Assembly (NCBI GenBank): GCA_023132135.1 | Contig: JAGLYR010000297.1 | Span: forward strand, 1-7,803 | DNA from: Candidatus Eiseniibacteriota bacterium | GTDB taxonomy: Bacteria > Arandabacterota > Arandabacteria > JAGLYR01 | Length of the DNA: 7,803 nucleotides | Direction: 5' to 3' | Shown: positions 408 through 7,236 of the stretch, one piece after another | Layout: the number at the start of each line of letters is the position of its first letter | Position numbering within the stretch: position 1 is the first letter of the stretch | Notes under the pieces: generated by a model | Told to the model about the DNA's origin: nothing | Databases searched by the model: none | What the model saw: the letters and a program-made list of their open reading frames with translations, nothing else | Program-made: the position numbers and the translations under genes

Positions 408-1796
408 ATGAAGATTCACTTCCACGGAGCCGTTCGGTCCGTCACCGGATCGAAGCACGTGATTGAAACCGAGCAGAGCCGTGTCTTGATTGATTGCGGG
501 TTGTTTCAGGGCCGCCGCAAGGACTTCTGGGAACAGAACCAGAACTTCCCCTTCGATCCCACGGAGATCGATGCTCTCATTCTGTCCCACGCCCATATCG
601 ACCACTCGGGGAACATTCCAGGCCTGGTGAAACAGGGGTTCCGGCAGAATATCTTCTCCACCACGGCAACGCGAAATCTCTGCGCCGTGATGCTCCGGGA
701 CAGTGCGCACATTCAGGAACAGGACGCCGAGTACCTCAACCGCAAACGGCGGAACAAGGATGAAGAGATCACGCCGCTCTACACAAGCGCGGACGCGGAA
801 AAGGCGATGGAGCTCTTTGTGGGTATCCACTACGGCCGGAAGATCCCTGTCACCCCGGACATCGCAGTGACTTTCTACGACGCCGGGCACGTCCTTGGGT
901 CTGCCCTCCCCGTTCTGGATGTGACCGAGAACGGCAAAACGCGCCGAATCGCATACGCCTGTGACCTGGGCCGGGATGACCTGCCTATTCTGAAGGATCC
1001 CTACCGAATCAACGATGCTGATTTCATGATCATGGAGAGCACCTACGGCGACCGCGAACATGAGACAATCGACTCTGCTGCCGAGAAGCTGGCGGCAATC
1101 GTGAATCGCACGGCTGCGCGAGGTGGAAAAGTGATCATCCCTTCCTTTGCCCTCGAGCGAACTCAGGAGATTCTGCACTGCTTGCGGCGCCTCTTTGATA
1201 AACGCCAGATCCCCGAGATTCCCGTCTATGTCGACAGTCCCTTGGCCGTGAACGTGACGGAGATCTTCCGGATCCACAGCGAGTACTTCGATCAGGAAAC
1301 GATGGAAATGCTGGCCAACGACCAGAATCCTTTCCAGTTCCCCCATCTGACTTACATCCGGAAGGTTGAAGACTCCAAGAAGCTCCACCAGCAGCGGTTT
1401 CCCTCCATCATCATCTCCGCCTCCGGCATGTGCGAAGCCGGCCGGATCCTCCATCACCTGAAGAACAATATCGAGGATTCTAGGAACACAATCGTTATCG
1501 TGGGATTCATGGCCCAGCACACCCTCGGGCGGAGGATCGCGGAAGGTCGGCCCAAGGTGAAGATCTTCCGCAAGGAATACCGGCTGAGAGCTGATGTGGA
1601 GGTCATGGACAGTTTCAGCGCTCATGCAGACCGGAGCGATCTCATCGCCTATGCCAAACAGGCTTCCAAACAGAGCAGGAAGTTCTTCCTCGTTCACGGC
1701 GAGGAAACCCAGGCCCTCGCCCTCGCAGGCCATCTCAGGGATGAGGGGATTGATGAAGTCATCGTTCCGAAGCTCCATGACACGATCGAGGTGTAG
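408..1796 (+). CDS. Beta-CASP metallo-beta-lactamase-fold ribonuclease (CPSF73/TTHA0252-like)
   Basis: This 462-residue protein is a cytoplasmic zinc-dependent RNA-processing nuclease of the metallo-beta-lactamase/beta-CASP family, and all the expected motifs are visible. Motif 1 is the Asp of LIDCGLFQG (D29). Motif 2 is HAHIDH (61-66). Motif 3 is the His of DAGHVLGSA (H161). Motif 4 is the Asp of ACDLGRD (D186). The beta-CASP part begins at ESTYGDR (210-216) and includes PSFALERTQEIL and YVDSPLAVNVTEIF. Motif B is SFSAHAD (H406) and motif C is LVHGE (H430). The length fits bacterial members such as Thermus TTHA0252. No KH or S1 domain follows, so it is not RNase J. Known relatives cut or trim single-stranded RNA; the substrate here is unknown. 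The ATG has AGGAG 6 nt upstream and a promoter before it. Its 3' end overlaps the next gene, so it heads an operon. Confidence 0.96.
   Translation: MKIHFHGAVRSVTGSKHVIETEQSRVLIDCGLFQGRRKDFWEQNQNFPFDPTEIDALILSHAHIDHSGNIPGLVKQGFRQNIFSTTATRNLCAVMLRDSAHIQEQDAEYLNRKRRNKDEEITPLYTSADAEKAMELFVGIHYGRKIPVTPDIAVTFYDAGHVLGSALPVLDVTENGKTRRIAYACDLGRDDLPILKDPYRINDADFMIMESTYGDREHETIDSAAEKLAAIVNRTAARGGKVIIPSFALERTQEILHCLRRLFDKRQIPEIPVYVDSPLAVNVTEIFRIHSEYFDQETMEMLANDQNPFQFPHLTYIRKVEDSKKLHQQRFPSIIISASGMCEAGRILHHLKNNIEDSRNTIVIVGFMAQHTLGRRIAEGRPKVKIFRKEYRLRADVEVMDSFSAHADRSDLIAYAKQASKQSRKFFLVHGEETQALALAGHLRDEGIDEVIVPKLHDTIEV
1743..1748 (+). promoter_or_regulatory. Ribosome binding site that favours the TamB-like start at 1753
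   Basis: GAGGGG lies inside the end of the RNase gene, 4 nt before the ATG at 1753 (6 nt if only GAGG is counted). The next in-frame ATG, at 1777, has no comparable purine tract upstream, and the ATG at 1741 has its AGGG too close. The site therefore supports initiation at 1753 within the upstream reading frame. Confidence 0.45.
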
Positions 1797-2949
1797 CTTC
1801 GGGCCTGGTTCCGGCCACTGTCCGAACCCCGGTCTCGCACTCCTTGTGGCAATGCTCGTGGCCGGGCTTGCGTCCAGTGCTTCGGCCGGGCTCCCGGGAC
1901 TGCCCGTTCCAGGGGAACTCCCTGTCTCCCCCGGTGCGCTCACGTGCATCGACACCACCCTGTTCGACGAAACAATCGCCATTTCTTTCTGCATGGAGCC
2001 GGGGGGCGATGGTCCCTGGCGCGCATCCATCGACTTCCTCGCGACACCCGTGAGAACACTTGCGCCACTCCTGCCCGGGGCAATTGGAACCCTCCGCGGC
2101 GGCACGGTGTCCGGCCGGATCGAGTTGGAAGGATCACACCTCCGGGAGCCGACGTACGATCCGGGAATCCTCATCTCGGGAACCGTCTGCGCCGACAGCC
2201 TGTGGTGGCCCGCAAGCCGGACCCACAGCGAATGGTCCCTTCTCAATGCAATATTCCGTCTCAACGTTGGCCTTCGCGGGAAACCCTCCAGCCCCATCGT
2301 CGAGGGATCCATCACCGGCGAGCAGGGTGCCGTCCGGTACCTGGGACATGATCTCCCCCTCTCCATCTTCCAGATCACATTCCTGGACACGACACGGTTC
2401 GATCCCTTTGTGAGCCTTGCCGCATCGGGATCTGTGATGTCCAACACGGGACAGAGATACTTCGTCCAGTTCGATGTGGCCGGCCTCGCCAGCCAGGCCC
2501 GCCCGCGTCTGGCCTCCAAACCGGCTCTCATTCCCCAGGATATCGAGAGCCTCATGGCCCTGGGCGTCCCTCTCTCAGCCTTCTCCGAGGAAACCCTGGT
2601 TCTCCGGGAGGGTTCGTACTGGGCCCAACAGATCTTCCTCCTCCGGGCACTGGAGATCGCCGCCGGGAGGATTCTGGGGCTGGCCGAGGAACGGGCCGCT
2701 AGGCTTCTGGCCCTGGACGAGGTCCGGGTCCCGACCGGAGTAGATCCGTCGTATCCGTCGTCCGAGGTTGAGATCGCGAAACATCTGGGAGGCCGGACGA
2801 CACTCTCGTATACGTCCCCGGTATGGCACTCGCGTGACTACAAGGTGAGGCTGGATTTCCGCCTGAGCGATCGTTTCTCCATCGAGTCGGAGAACAACCA
2901 GACCGGAGAAGCCGGGATCGACCTCAGGTTCAAGAAGAGGTTTCGTTAA
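1753..2949 (+). CDS. Short TamB-like (DUF490 C-terminal domain) envelope protein
   Basis: The protein is about 398 residues and resembles only the conserved C-terminal part of TamB. A basic N-terminus is followed by a hydrophobic segment and SSASA, giving a signal peptide or anchor with possible cleavage near residue 45. Family-like blocks are VEGSITGEQGAVRYLGHDLP (183-202), QDIESLMALGVP (262-273), a helix-forming stretch (290-325) and the strand-rich end VEIAKHLGGRTTLSYTSP to GIDLRFKKRFR. TamB is an inner-membrane-anchored periplasmic protein whose C-terminus docks on the Omp85 partner TamA; the pair helps outer-membrane protein assembly and phospholipid transport. E. coli TamB has about 1,259 residues, so the long lipid-groove region is missing here. 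The start overlaps the RNase gene by 44 bp; ATG 1777 (20-bp overlap) is the alternative. The TamA-like gene follows after 20 nt. An intact signal sequence argues against a broken gene. Confidence 0.83.
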   Translation: MKSSFRSSMTRSRCSFGPGSGHCPNPGLALLVAMLVAGLASSASAGLPGLPVPGELPVSPGALTCIDTTLFDETIAISFCMEPGGDGPWRASIDFLATPVRTLAPLLPGAIGTLRGGTVSGRIELEGSHLREPTYDPGILISGTVCADSLWWPASRTHSEWSLLNAIFRLNVGLRGKPSSPIVEGSITGEQGAVRYLGHDLPLSIFQITFLDTTRFDPFVSLAASGSVMSNTGQRYFVQFDVAGLASQARPRLASKPALIPQDIESLMALGVPLSAFSEETLVLREGSYWAQQIFLLRALEIAAGRILGLAEERAARLLALDEVRVPTGVDPSYPSSEVEIAKHLGGRTTLSYTSPVWHSRDYKVRLDFRLSDRFSIESENNQTGEAGIDLRFKKRFR

Positions 2950-2969: not shown

Positions 2970-4733
2970 ATGAAGAACCAGACGCTCATCGTTGCAATCA
3001 TCCTTTCCCTGGCGCCGGCGGCGGATGCTCCGGCCGATCCCCCGACGGTCCGGGAAATCCGGCTGGAGGGATCTGAGAGCTTCCGTCAATCTACACTGAC
3101 CCGGCTCATGAAAACCCGTGAAACCTCATTCTCTTCCCGCGGCCGATTCGACGCTGAAGTGTTCGCCCGCGACCTGGACAACCTGGCGGCCTTCTACCTT
3201 TTGCAGGGGTTCCTGGACGTTCAGGTCCTATCCCACCCGCCGGCATACTCCGCGGACAGCGCGACCGTCGACCTGCGGATCACAATTGCCGAAGGACCCC
3301 AGTGGAGGGTGTCGAAGGTTCGGTTGTCCGGCGCTGTTGCCCTTTCCGCCGACACCCTCGCCGGGCGGCACCTCCTCCGCGAGGGCGGCCCGTATCGCCC
3401 GTCTCTCCTTCCCGCAGACCGCAATGCCATCCTGGATGAGTATGCCGCCCGAGGGTATCTGGATACTCGTCTCAAGCAGGACGTGATTCCCGATCGGAAG
3501 ACCCGATCGGTGTCGATCGTATACAGAATCACCGAAGGCCCCCCCGCTTCGGTGGCCCGCGTCACGATCCGGGGATTGAGGAAGACAAGACGGTCCACCG
3601 TGATCCGGGAACTGGAATTCTCGCCCGGAGACCGCTTCGACCTCCGGCGCTGGGGCCGTTCCCAGTCGAACCTGTACAACACCGGGCTCTTCGAGTGGGT
3701 ATGGATTCAGCCCTCGTCCGACGACACCGGCAAGCCGGAGAAGGAGGTACTGATCCTCGTCAACGAGAAGCCGCGGTGGGAATTCTCGACCGGGGTCGGG
3801 TACGGACGGTTCGATCAGGCGCGCCTCGTCGCCAGTATCCGCCAGGGCAATCTTCTGGGCCGGGGGATTCGGGGCGGACTGGAAGGGAAGATCAGCGACA
3901 AAACCCGGAGGGCGGAATTCCTGATTTCCGATCCCTGGTTCTTTGGACACAGGATCACCAGTCACGGCGCCGCTGTCTACCAGTGGCGGGATGAACCGGA
4001 GTTCATCGCCGAGACGGTGGAAGGGGTCGTTCTGCTGACACGGGCGCTGCGGACCCGGGTGTTCGTTGAAGGCGGGTACCGCCTGCGGCGAACCACGCTG
4101 CTCGAGGTTTCTTCCTCGGCCGCCGATCGGGATCGGAGAAACCGGACGAGTCTCCTGGGAACCGCCATCTCATGGAACATGCGGGATGACCTCTTCAATA
4201 CCACACGGGGGTTCTTTCTGAGATTCGAGGCACAGTATGCCGGCACTTTCCTGAGCGGAACAAACCAGTTCCTGCGGGCCAACGTGTACTGGCGGCACTT
4301 CGTCCCGCTCCCCACCGGCGTCATCCTCGCCTTCCGATCGCACCTGGGCGCAATGACACCCCTCCACACCGGTGGAACAATCCCCATAAACGAGCGCTAC
4401 TTCATGGGCGGAGACCAGTCCGTTCGGGGTTACTCAAGGCACTCCCTGGGTCCGACCGATGCGTCCGGAGTGGCAAGGGGGGGGCGCAAACTCGTGGAGT
4501 TCAGCCAGGAGTTCCGGATCCCGGTGAGCCCCCGGTTTCTCATTGCCGTCTTCGCCGACGAGGGCATTCTCTTCGACAACAACCCTCACCGGGACGACTG
4601 GGCCGTGGGCGCCGGCGGTGGGTTCCGGATCGTAACACCGTTCGGCGTTGTGCGGGTCGAAGCCGCCCGGGGAGTTACAGAGCGTTGGGGAACGGAGACC
4701 GAGTATTACTTCAGCGTCGGTCAGTCTTTCTAG
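2970..4733 (+). CDS. TamA-like Omp85 outer-membrane protein (three POTRA domains and a beta-barrel)
   Basis: This 587-residue exported protein starts with a signal peptide (MKNQTLIVAIILSLAPAADA, 1-20). Three POTRA-type repeats follow at about 26-108, 112-189 and 193-267, each with a terminal strand such as VDLRITIAEGP or VSIVYRITEGP. The rest (about 268-587) is the Omp85 barrel. It has the family lid-loop signature MGGDQSVRGY (479-488) containing the conserved RGY, the DPWFFG block, and a C-terminal phenylalanine in FSVGQSF. Three POTRAs and this length match TamA (577 residues in E. coli) better than BamA (about 800 residues, five POTRAs). The predicted role is insertion of outer-membrane proteins or lipid handling together with the TamB-like protein encoded just upstream. 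The ATG at 2970 leads straight into the signal peptide; a TTG at 2958 would add four residues. Neither has a strong Shine-Dalgarno, so translation may be coupled to the preceding gene. Confidence 0.94.
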   Translation: MKNQTLIVAIILSLAPAADAPADPPTVREIRLEGSESFRQSTLTRLMKTRETSFSSRGRFDAEVFARDLDNLAAFYLLQGFLDVQVLSHPPAYSADSATVDLRITIAEGPQWRVSKVRLSGAVALSADTLAGRHLLREGGPYRPSLLPADRNAILDEYAARGYLDTRLKQDVIPDRKTRSVSIVYRITEGPPASVARVTIRGLRKTRRSTVIRELEFSPGDRFDLRRWGRSQSNLYNTGLFEWVWIQPSSDDTGKPEKEVLILVNEKPRWEFSTGVGYGRFDQARLVASIRQGNLLGRGIRGGLEGKISDKTRRAEFLISDPWFFGHRITSHGAAVYQWRDEPEFIAETVEGVVLLTRALRTRVFVEGGYRLRRTTLLEVSSSAADRDRRNRTSLLGTAISWNMRDDLFNTTRGFFLRFEAQYAGTFLSGTNQFLRANVYWRHFVPLPTGVILAFRSHLGAMTPLHTGGTIPINERYFMGGDQSVRGYSRHSLGPTDASGVARGGRKLVEFSQEFRIPVSPRFLIAVFADEGILFDNNPHRDDWAVGAGGGFRIVTPFGVVRVEAARGVTERWGTETEYYFSVGQSF

Positions 4734-4792: not shown

Positions 4793-4818
4793 GGACTAGG
4801 GACTACGGACTAGGGACT
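4793..4818. repeat. 12-bp tandem direct repeat
   Basis: GGACTAGGGACT occurs at 4793-4804 and again at 4807-4818, separated by AC (14-bp period). The right copy supplies the left arm of the hairpin at 4811-4836. It sits in the spacer between convergent genes, and no protein or RNA function is evident. Confidence 0.7.
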
Positions 4819-4836: not shown

Positions 4837-7236
4837 TCACTTGACCAGCACTACCTTGCGAGTCGCCCGTCCTTCCCCGGTCTGGAGCACGCAAAAGTAC
4901 ACGCCGCTGGAGGCACGCTCGCCCGTCAGCGTCGTCCCGTCCCATGTGACCACATGCTCGCCCGCTTCCATCCTCCCGGAGATGAGGGTCGAGACCTTTC
5001 GCCCGCCCACGTCGTAGATGGCCATCTCAACCGCCCCGCTCGCGGGAATCGAGAAAGAGATCGTCGTTCTGGGATTGAACGGGTTCGGGTAGTTCTCCAG
5101 CGGAATCGAGAGCGGGACGAACCCGCCGATCTCGTCCTCCACACCACCGAAGCAGACATCGAACACCTCGATGTCCAGGATCTGTGGTGTAGTCGCGGAG
5201 AAGTTGTAGTGGTCGATCTCCAAGTTGCGGTTGACCGCCCCCGTCGTGCACTCGTAGGCGCTGTTGAACATGTACTTGTAATCAACGAACACCGACGATG
5301 ATTCGGGGAAGATCACATCCAATGTGTAGATGAAGTCCCCGGAAGTCTCGTCCGGCGGAACGCCGTCGTCAAACATCTCGCTGATCGACGGGATGTCCCA
5401 CGCCAGCGGGGCCACGGAGCCGTTGATCGAAACCGTGTCCGTCGGCGCCGGAATCTGCGAACCGGCATCGACCCGGAACCGCACGGTTACATCCCTGCTG
5501 GTGATCCACTTGAAAGCAAAGAGGTCCAGATCCAGCACCAGCGGATTCGCCAGAGAGTAGACAGCATCGTCCAGGAAGAATGTGCGGTTGTCCCCGATAT
5601 ATTCCCAGTAGTCCGGGGCCTGGTTGTACTGGTACTTGTACTGGACATTCTTGCGGGTCCCGGCGGGGAATACCAGCTCGGCGCTGTATATCAGATCGTC
5701 CGCCGTCTCGTCCGGCGCCACCCCATCGTCCGCCAGGAAGATATCAGACGGCACGCTCCAGCTGAGTGGAGCCTCGGAGCCGCCGACCATTACCGAGTCT
5801 GTTTCCGCCGGCAAGGGATCCGTACGGTTCATATCCACCTGGAAGTGAACGGCAATAGCCGTGTTGGAGAAGTTGGTGGGATCCTCGTCGTTCCACCAGA
5901 CATCCACAGTATCACGACCGACCCCACACTGAAGACCCGGTTGGTTGTAGAAGTGATGCCCCATGGGCTCCCAGTTGCTGCACTGGTGCGTGAACTGGTA
6001 CTCGATGGGTACCGTGGCCGACCCGGAACCACAGTCGCATTCCAGGCAGAACTCGATTGTACGGGTGTAGATGCTATCGCCCGCCACCGCATCGGGAGCC
6101 ACGCCGTCGTCGTACATCAGGTGGTCACAGGTAGGATCCCAGGTGAGTGGGCTGACTCCACCCTCCACCGCAACGGTGTCCGGGTTGAAGCCGACGGTCT
6201 TCAACCGCTCGTTCATGTGGACCATGAACACGAGTTCCATCAGGCAGAAACACCGCTGGTTCCCCACACCGTCTTCCACAATGGTGTTGTTGTTCAGGTC
6301 CTTGACGTTGCGCACCGTCAGCGTGTAACAAGGACCCAGATCGAGTGCCGGGGAATTCGTGAGATAGACAACCGATGGATCGCTGTCCGATCGGGTAGCT
6401 GTCTGGACCGTGACGCCACCCGTCAGGGTGTAGTTGCCTGCCGTCTCTGCGGAAGTCTCGTCCACAGGCTCACTGAACTGTACGGTGATCGTGTCGTTGG
6501 CCGCGCAGGCGGTAATCACAACCGGAGGCGTGGTATCCGACCCAGTCGCCTCTGCGACCTCTGTCGAAACCCACACGTAGGCGGGATCGGACCAGTTTGT
6601 GGCGTCCCAGTCGCCGGACGGATCGTTCACCGTGTCCTGCGCCGGGTCAGTATCGCTGCCGCCGGTACACCAGACCTCGCACCAGAGCGTGTCCGGACTG
6701 CCAATCCGGGATTTCTCGATTTTCCACTCGATCCCGCTCACAGCGCTGTTGTCGATGGCCACGGCATCAGCTCCGCCGGACATAGACCAGTTGTGGGTCC
6801 CCTGATCCCAGGCCCAGAACTGCGTATCCGAAGGATCGTAGGGCAGATTATCCACCCAGGAATTCAGGGAGAACTCCGGCTCATGCGGTTCTTCCGCGTA
6901 GGTTGACCGCCCCCAGGCATCCTCCCACGCGCCGGTGGTATCGTTCGTCGTATCAATGTAGAGCAGGTACTTTCCCCAGTCGGTCGAGGCCAGGTTCGCA
7001 TTGACTGTGAAGAAGAAGTACCAGTAGGTCGCGTCGTTGCAGACATACAGTTCCAGCAGATCCATGTTGGCGTTGCCGTTGCCGTCACCCGAAGGATCCA
7101 CGGCCTCGGCCGCGCCGTAGACCGCCTCCACGAGACCATCCATCGTCGGAGTGCCGAAGCCGAAGGCGACGGCCTGCCCAACGCAGCCCAGGACCAGGAG
7201 TGCCAGGAACGCAACGGAGAATGCGCCTTTCATCAT
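4837..7236 (-). CDS. Exported modular carbohydrate-binding-like protein with FlgD/T9SS-type C-terminal domain
   Basis: This 799-residue protein has no recognisable catalytic domain. Modules in order are: a signal peptide (1-24, ending QAVA); a DOMON/CBM9-like beta-sandwich (about 28-230, rich in Trp and Tyr); a bacterial Ig-like domain of the SbsA/Big_5 style (about 234-330, SDTTPPVV...TVQFSEPVDE); three tandem beta-sandwich modules (about 332-458, 459-577 and 578-695), each with a DDGV[AP]PD...D.IY motif at 376, 503 and 623; and a C-terminal FlgD-Ig/T9SS-like domain (about 711-799) opening with NYPNPFNP and ending in RKVVLVK. The three modules recall starch-binding (CBM20-like) or choice-of-anchor domains. 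The likely role is binding polysaccharide at or outside the cell surface. VLGC (15-18) is a weak lipobox, so lipoprotein export is an alternative. The two ATGs at 7236 and 7233 lie behind a near-perfect Shine-Dalgarno. The Cys content is high, mainly around 329-437. Confidence 0.93.
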   Translation of the reverse strand: MMKGAFSVAFLALLVLGCVGQAVAFGFGTPTMDGLVEAVYGAAEAVDPSGDGNGNANMDLLELYVCNDATYWYFFFTVNANLASTDWGKYLLYIDTTNDTTGAWEDAWGRSTYAEEPHEPEFSLNSWVDNLPYDPSDTQFWAWDQGTHNWSMSGGADAVAIDNSAVSGIEWKIEKSRIGSPDTLWCEVWCTGGSDTDPAQDTVNDPSGDWDATNWSDPAYVWVSTEVAEATGSDTTPPVVITACAANDTITVQFSEPVDETSAETAGNYTLTGGVTVQTATRSDSDPSVVYLTNSPALDLGPCYTLTVRNVKDLNNNTIVEDGVGNQRCFCLMELVFMVHMNERLKTVGFNPDTVAVEGGVSPLTWDPTCDHLMYDDGVAPDAVAGDSIYTRTIEFCLECDCGSGSATVPIEYQFTHQCSNWEPMGHHFYNQPGLQCGVGRDTVDVWWNDEDPTNFSNTAIAVHFQVDMNRTDPLPAETDSVMVGGSEAPLSWSVPSDIFLADDGVAPDETADDLIYSAELVFPAGTRKNVQYKYQYNQAPDYWEYIGDNRTFFLDDAVYSLANPLVLDLDLFAFKWITSRDVTVRFRVDAGSQIPAPTDTVSINGSVAPLAWDIPSISEMFDDGVPPDETSGDFIYTLDVIFPESSSVFVDYKYMFNSAYECTTGAVNRNLEIDHYNFSATTPQILDIEVFDVCFGGVEDEIGGFVPLSIPLENYPNPFNPRTTISFSIPASGAVEMAIYDVGGRKVSTLISGRMEAGEHVVTWDGTTLTGERASSGVYFCVLQTGEGRATRKVVLVK
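5152..6243 (-). repeat. Three tandem protein modules inside the 799-residue gene
   Basis: Residues 332-695 divide into three related units of about 115-127 residues. Each starts with a strand such as VHFQVDMN or VRFRVDAG. Each then has a D.V.V.G...PL.W segment, a DDG..PD....D.IY turn (codons near 6067-6111, 5686-5730 and 5326-5370) and a YKY- or YQF-type strand. Units two and three are closest to each other and share DNA such as GTCTCGTCCGGCG at both turns, pointing to a fairly recent internal duplication. Unit one is more diverged and Cys-rich. Confidence 0.8.

Follow-up and report, generated by a model that had tools for sequence, protein, structure and literature searches.

The locus described here raises the question of what the part of TamB that would dock onto a TamA-type partner does without the lipid-carrying bridge. 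The window, that is, the whole 7,803 bp stretch of DNA that was analysed, is an entire contig of the genome of a Candidatus Eiseniibacteriota bacterium (G000), whose assembly comprises 3.40 Mb in 345 contigs and is 96% complete. The contig belongs to this genome: its tetranucleotide distance equals the median of 61 of the genome's own contigs, its GC content is 0.607 vs 0.605 for the genome, and its composition is far from that of the phyla holding the relatives. As far as structure is concerned, we consider it likely that the window holds a real, reduced TAM pair.

The mini-TamB and TamA2 genes

The first gene of the pair, here called mini-TamB or TamB2 (1753–2949, plus strand), encodes a predicted signal peptide (about residues 1–45) and a DUF490 domain only. 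Its frame is open from 1594 and stops at 2947–2949. There are two ATG candidates, at 1753 (398 aa) and 1777 (390 aa), and GAGGGG, a possible ribosome site, lies just 5' of the first. The TamB/DUF490 profile PF04357 matches residues 174–397 over profile positions 154–381 of 381, that is, to the profile end (E 2.8e-11, 43.7 bits; curated cut-off 22.4 bits). The C-terminus, which reads GIDLRFKKRFR, has an aromatic residue near its end, as in the outer-membrane-strand mimic of the TamB family. At 398 aa overall, mini-TamB lacks the long periplasm-spanning taco region before DUF490. The N-terminal hydrophobic segment, GLALLVAMLVAGLA, is followed by ASA-G and looks cleavable, as judged by eye and hydropathy only; the predicted hydrophobic core and cleavage region (GLALLVAMLVAGLASSASA) is located at 1831–1887 on the plus strand, as indicated by hydropathy and by a helix at residues 26–43 in the model described below. 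Among 3,734 interior 60-aa segments taken from 37 full-length TamBs, not one reaches the 14-residue hydropathy of this segment (2.55). This means that the N-terminal segment is not simply an exposed TamB interior. The first-pass annotation of this DNA had described a short TamB with a C-terminal domain and a signal sequence at 1753–2949, and both features are borne out here. The codon usage of the C-terminal part of mini-TamB is as gene-like as that of TamA2. Of the conserved DUF490 columns, mini-TamB keeps 74%, the lowest of 43 sequences (83–100% in the others), which fits relaxed constraint. The possibility that one long TamB has been split by frameshifts, as in Deinococcus DR_1462-1460, was rejected, as no other TamB piece is found in the six frames of the window.

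The second gene, TamA2 (2970–4733, plus strand), starts best at ATG 2970, 20 bp 3' of mini-TamB, and encodes 587 aa, in agreement with the earlier description of a TamA-like gene of normal size directly after the short TamB. The protein is intact and well conserved, with three POTRA domains (three stretches matching PF07244) and an Omp85 barrel (PF01103, 8.8e-45). It scores 288 bits against the NCBIfam BamA model TIGR03303, just under the cut-off of 297, and 119 bits against the proteobacterial TamA equivalog NF047950, below the cut-off of 625. TamA2 thus resembles BamA in scoring better with the BamA model than with the TamA model; unlike BamA, it has only three POTRA domains and a TamB-type gene as partner. 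Judged from its sequence, TamA2 is TamA-like by architecture and partner, and not a proteobacterial TamA. The BamA of the genome is a separate protein of 760 aa on another contig (C140). A fourth Omp85 protein (L051; contig C85, 3574–5355), with 593 aa, three POTRA stretches and a very long branch, is encoded between genes resembling proS and ligA, and several class members contain Omp85 frames of 563–566 aa.

Upstream of the pair, at 408–1796 on the plus strand, lies a complete gene for a beta-CASP metallo-beta-lactamase-fold nuclease (462 aa; PF10996, PF07521, PF00753), the 3' end of which overlaps the start of mini-TamB. A promoter-like site at 348–376 precedes the beta-CASP, mini-TamB and TamA2 genes, and no terminator-like site was found between 408 and 2970. 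Taken together, these two features suggest that the three genes probably share a transcript, with the beta-CASP gene as the first. No conserved link between the beta-CASP nuclease and TAM was seen. The minus strand also has a 799-aa open frame (156–2555) that lies antisense to the genes for the beta-CASP nuclease and mini-TamB; its codon bias is weak, and it was dropped as a by-product of high GC. Downstream of TamA2, an intergenic repeat-like motif (GGACTAGGGACTACGGACTAGGGACT, 4793–4818) was present, among the loci examined, only in copies of that stretch. Convergent with TamA2 is a gene on the minus strand (4837–7236) for a 799-aa secreted-type protein with choice-of-anchor X repeats, Big_5 and a C-terminal tail of the FlgD/Por_Secre_tail type, which may be an outer-membrane client. 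The end of a further minus-strand gene, with a pullulanase X25-type domain, is cut by the contig end (7327–7803).

Predicted fold of mini-TamB

We modelled mini-TamB with AlphaFold2 as a single chain (43-sequence alignment, mean pLDDT 68.5). The model consists of the signal helix (residues 26–43), about 12 strands (55–256), helices (261–318) and six strands (323–393). Its top Foldseek matches were E. coli TamB in 9xdc_B (2.3e-8) and 9xdd_B (2e-5), and VIA-align superposed residues 54–386 on TamB residues 902–1259 of 9xdc_B (Z 10.0, rmsd 6.8, 229 aligned). The first block of strands (1915–2520, plus strand) is a stub of the beta-taco, which VIA-align matched to residues 975–1135 of 5vtg (Z 8.8). 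The beta-taco, which the first-pass annotation had regarded as lacking, is thus shortened but, in the model, not absent. At about 0.48 nm per strand, the twelve strands add up to a stub of roughly 5–6 nm, too short for the periplasm, and the earlier statement that this TamB could not bridge the envelope alone stands.

The helices and the last six strands form the predicted C-terminal docking region (2533–2946, plus strand), which profile alignment to 9xdc_B equates with residues 1137–1259 of E. coli TamB; it has counterparts for helices 1137–1154 and 1160–1184 and for the strands that follow as far as 1259, among them those found inside the TamA barrel. Cryo-EM of E. coli TamAB has shown that strand 1 of TamA is paired with the final strand of TamB, that TamB strands 3–6 are inside the TamA barrel and that the taco groove is a lipid carrier (PMC12800296). 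In E. coli, a coupling loop at TamB residues 998–1012 contacts POTRA domains. Across the TamB family, the length profile is consistent, with a long beta-helical/taco region before DUF490 (PMC4494059). The window shares with E. coli TamA-TamB (9xdc/9xdd) the combination of a three-POTRA Omp85 protein and an adjoining TamB, and the DUF490 part of mini-TamB has the taco strands, the two helices, the six C-terminal strands and the aromatic residue near the terminus. Unlike E. coli TamB, mini-TamB lacks roughly residues 1–900 and probably the inner-membrane signal anchor, and the coupling loop has no aligned counterpart, in a part where the alignment is weak. The gene order also differs, with TamB preceding TamA, and the pair is a second one alongside a canonical one.

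Canonical TAM, relatives and a second reduced case

The canonical pair of the genome begins on contig C26, where rpsB, tsf, frr, dxr and rseP-type genes (identified by sequence and by a gene order that agrees with that of relatives) are followed by TamA, a 689-aa frame, and then by a TamB that runs off the contig end. Contig C125 continues this TamB through an exact 150-bp end overlap, and the joined protein has 1,303 aa. Two class members show the same rpsB-dxr-rseP locus order with TamBs of 1,291 and 1,297 aa, and all seven other phylum genomes have a TamB. As the genome contains this canonical TamA with its 1,303-aa TamB, the window pair is a second, paralogous TAM. In one class member (L020; G002 C132, 6386–7450), the canonical TamB frame contains one in-frame TAG, which may be a sequencing error or a true interruption. 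Directly after the canonical TamB of the genome lies a gene (L013; C125, 732–3686, minus strand) for a protein of about 984 aa that combines a Peptidase_MA-like domain and PD40 propeller repeats with an Omp85-type barrel at its C-terminus; similar genes occur there in G001 and G006, and the protein is possibly a third component of the canonical locus.

TamA2 shows mostly 34–42% identity to TamAs of a family named Eisenbacteria/Effluviviaceae in public records (f72), which has TamB-then-TamA pairs, as against 30% to the genome's own TamA. In a quick tree of 93 Omp85 proteins, TamA2, the f72 TamAs and the TamA of one further locus, L114, which is on a long branch, grouped in a single clade with 98% SH-aLRT support, to the exclusion of the canonical TamAs of the genome, its class and Eisenbacteria. 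The window has the same gene order as TamB-TamA operons of Zixibacteria, Latescibacterota, Cloacimonadota and Eisenbacteria/Effluviviacota (L096–L137), among which the f72 operons hold the best-matching TamA relatives (up to 42% identity, same clade). Unlike mini-TamB, the TamBs of these operons have 1,212–2,109 aa in all complete cases, L114 excepted. In three of them (L112, L120 and L127, two of which are named Neomarinimicrobiota), the TamB that precedes TamA has exactly 2,109 aa, a length far above that of the others.

The first-pass annotation had called for a survey of TamB lengths next to Omp85 genes in related genomes. In other phyla, 53 complete TamBs adjoining comparable TamA-like genes have 1,137–2,109 aa, and one further reduced case, L114, was found. 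The annotation had also held that a full-length TamB at the same locus in relatives would speak for an assembly error or a decayed gene. Full-length TamBs do occur beside the best-matching TamA2 relatives, but in other phyla and other gene neighbourhoods, and not at the same locus. Most f72 genomes hold two TamBs, and, among the frames opened, both are long as far as the contigs reach. As the TamBs that neighbour the best-matching TamA relatives are full length, the window pair descends from a full-length system from which about 1,000 residues were lost. A second TAM of the window type is therefore either old or was transferred, and its short TamB is derived.

No match to mini-TamB was found in the other seven phylum genomes, and a scan of genome contigs with mini-TamB itself confirmed no relative. 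When the short form was sought in the eight phylum genomes and 386 relatives, the matches were nearly all in frames of more than 1,000 aa and began at about residue 110–320. The shorter frames that were opened, in G039, G018, G302, G340 and G076, start at a contig edge. Among the other Eisenbacteria TamA matches (47 genomes searched), only G405 showed a TamB plug in the flanks that were read.

The second reduced case, L114, comes from Candidatus Eisenbacteria isolate Loclat_bin-10216, where a 201-aa protein precedes a TamA of the TamA2 clade. The protein starts with MRAGGNGRAESWLWVASLTVFLVSC|AG, a lipobox, and its residues 118–201 match the TamB C-terminal profile (38 bits, 7e-11); identity to mini-TamB is 29% over 86 aa. 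Its AlphaFold2 model shows a helix (116–130) and six strands (134–196), mostly at pLDDT 83–95, with low confidence in the remainder. L114 thus retains only the last helix and the six strands of TamB, with no recognisable taco. A Foldseek search with this small, partly disordered model returned no significant PDB match, a result that carries no weight in either direction. Like the window genome, the L114 genome contains a separate long TamB frame (1,410 aa) beside another TamA. The known reduced pairs are these two only, and they are distantly related.

Possible role of the reduced pair

The reading that we favour, to which we give an even chance, is that the pair is a reduced TAM, made of an Omp85 insertase and a periplasmic docking subunit and having no lipid bridge. 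Mini-TamB2 would be exported, have its signal peptide removed and dock onto TamA2 from the periplasm, the taco stub lying alongside the POTRA domains. Its terminal strands would enter the TamA2 barrel and pair with the first strand at the lateral gate. There, mini-TamB2 would serve as a built-in pseudosubstrate, holding or priming the gate for the insertion of outer-membrane proteins by TamA2, and phospholipid transfer across the periplasm would be left to the canonical TamAB. As mini-TamB2 lacks the beta-taco of about 1,000 residues and probably the inner-membrane anchor, it should be unable to carry phospholipid across the periplasm itself. DUF490 binds the POTRA domains of TamA and BamA across species (PMC11361582). 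In vitro, TAM came close to BAM in the assembly of four OMPs, whereas TamA alone did not, and the OMP assembly activity of TamA is far lower without TamB than with it, which would be a reason to keep a TamB (PMC11341756). A cap for the Omp85 protein was among the roles that the first-pass annotation had offered, and by inference a cap or docking role is the best-fitting one.

Second TamB-Omp85 pairs as such are already known. In the TamB2-TamL2 operon of Flavobacterium johnsoniae and other Bacteroidota, which is dispensable, there is likewise a second pair per genome with the TamB gene first; unlike in the window, the F. johnsoniae TamB2 is full length, with a C-terminal pseudosubstrate domain at 1538–1643 (PMC12045153). 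The lipoprotein of that operon is the Omp85 protein (PMC12045153), whereas in L114 the lipobox is on the short TamB. What sets the window apart is the reduction to the docking part, and we found no report in the open-access papers searched of a TamB cut to its docking domain beside an intact TamA.

The main alternative is that the window holds a decaying paralogue, in which a redundant TamB erodes from its N-terminus into a relic ORF of little function, with TamA2 acting alone or also being lost. A complete canonical TamAB is present to make the copy redundant, mini-TamB is the most divergent of the 43 sequences at the conserved DUF490 columns, and none of the relatives has retained the short form at that locus. 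The two reduced copies also differ in length (398 vs 201 aa), as random erosion could give. Yet, exactly the TamA-docking C-terminus is kept in both the window and L114, and truncation alone would not expose the new hydrophobic signal at the N-terminus of mini-TamB, in place of which L114 has a lipobox. The intact frame with its gene-like C-terminal codon usage and the intact, well conserved TamA2 also argue against erosion, and we regard decay as rather unlikely.

Alternatively, mini-TamB2 could be the outer-membrane end of a two-part bridge, to which either the canonical TamB or a separate long AsmA-like protein hands lipid. The kept taco stub could continue a groove, and a long AsmA-like protein, which the first-pass annotation had suggested as a possible partner encoded elsewhere, does exist in the form of the full-length 1,303-aa TamB. 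That protein, however, has its own adjacent TamA, and is not obviously the partner here. The L114 version keeps no recognisable taco, and a scan of 1.0 Mb (about 30% of the 3.4-Mb genome) turned up no N-terminal TamB2 fragment encoded separately, which makes a relay improbable. An assembly or binning artefact, either a foreign contig or a beta-CASP gene end joined to the 3' end of a full-length TamB, would suit a fragmented assembly of 345 contigs and best-matching relatives with full-length TamBs, but is very improbable given a composition that matches the genome and is far from the relatives' phyla, a predicted signal peptide not found inside TamBs and a similar reduced pair in an unrelated assembly (L114).

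With the docking reading, a broader and more tentative proposal is possible. TamB may be reducible to a stand-alone docking plug, periplasmic in the window and lipid-anchored in L114, that fills and regulates the lateral gate of a dedicated TamA and is uncoupled from phospholipid transfer. As the role of TAM in OMP assembly, phospholipid movement or both is debated, the window pair would allow each to be tested without the other. Should the terminal strands by themselves be enough to activate or gate a TamA, the TamB C-terminus would have a function that is independent of the rest of the protein. A docking plug of this kind, if true, would be a new class of TamB-derived Omp85 accessory subunit, in which the two functions claimed for TAM are separated by nature.
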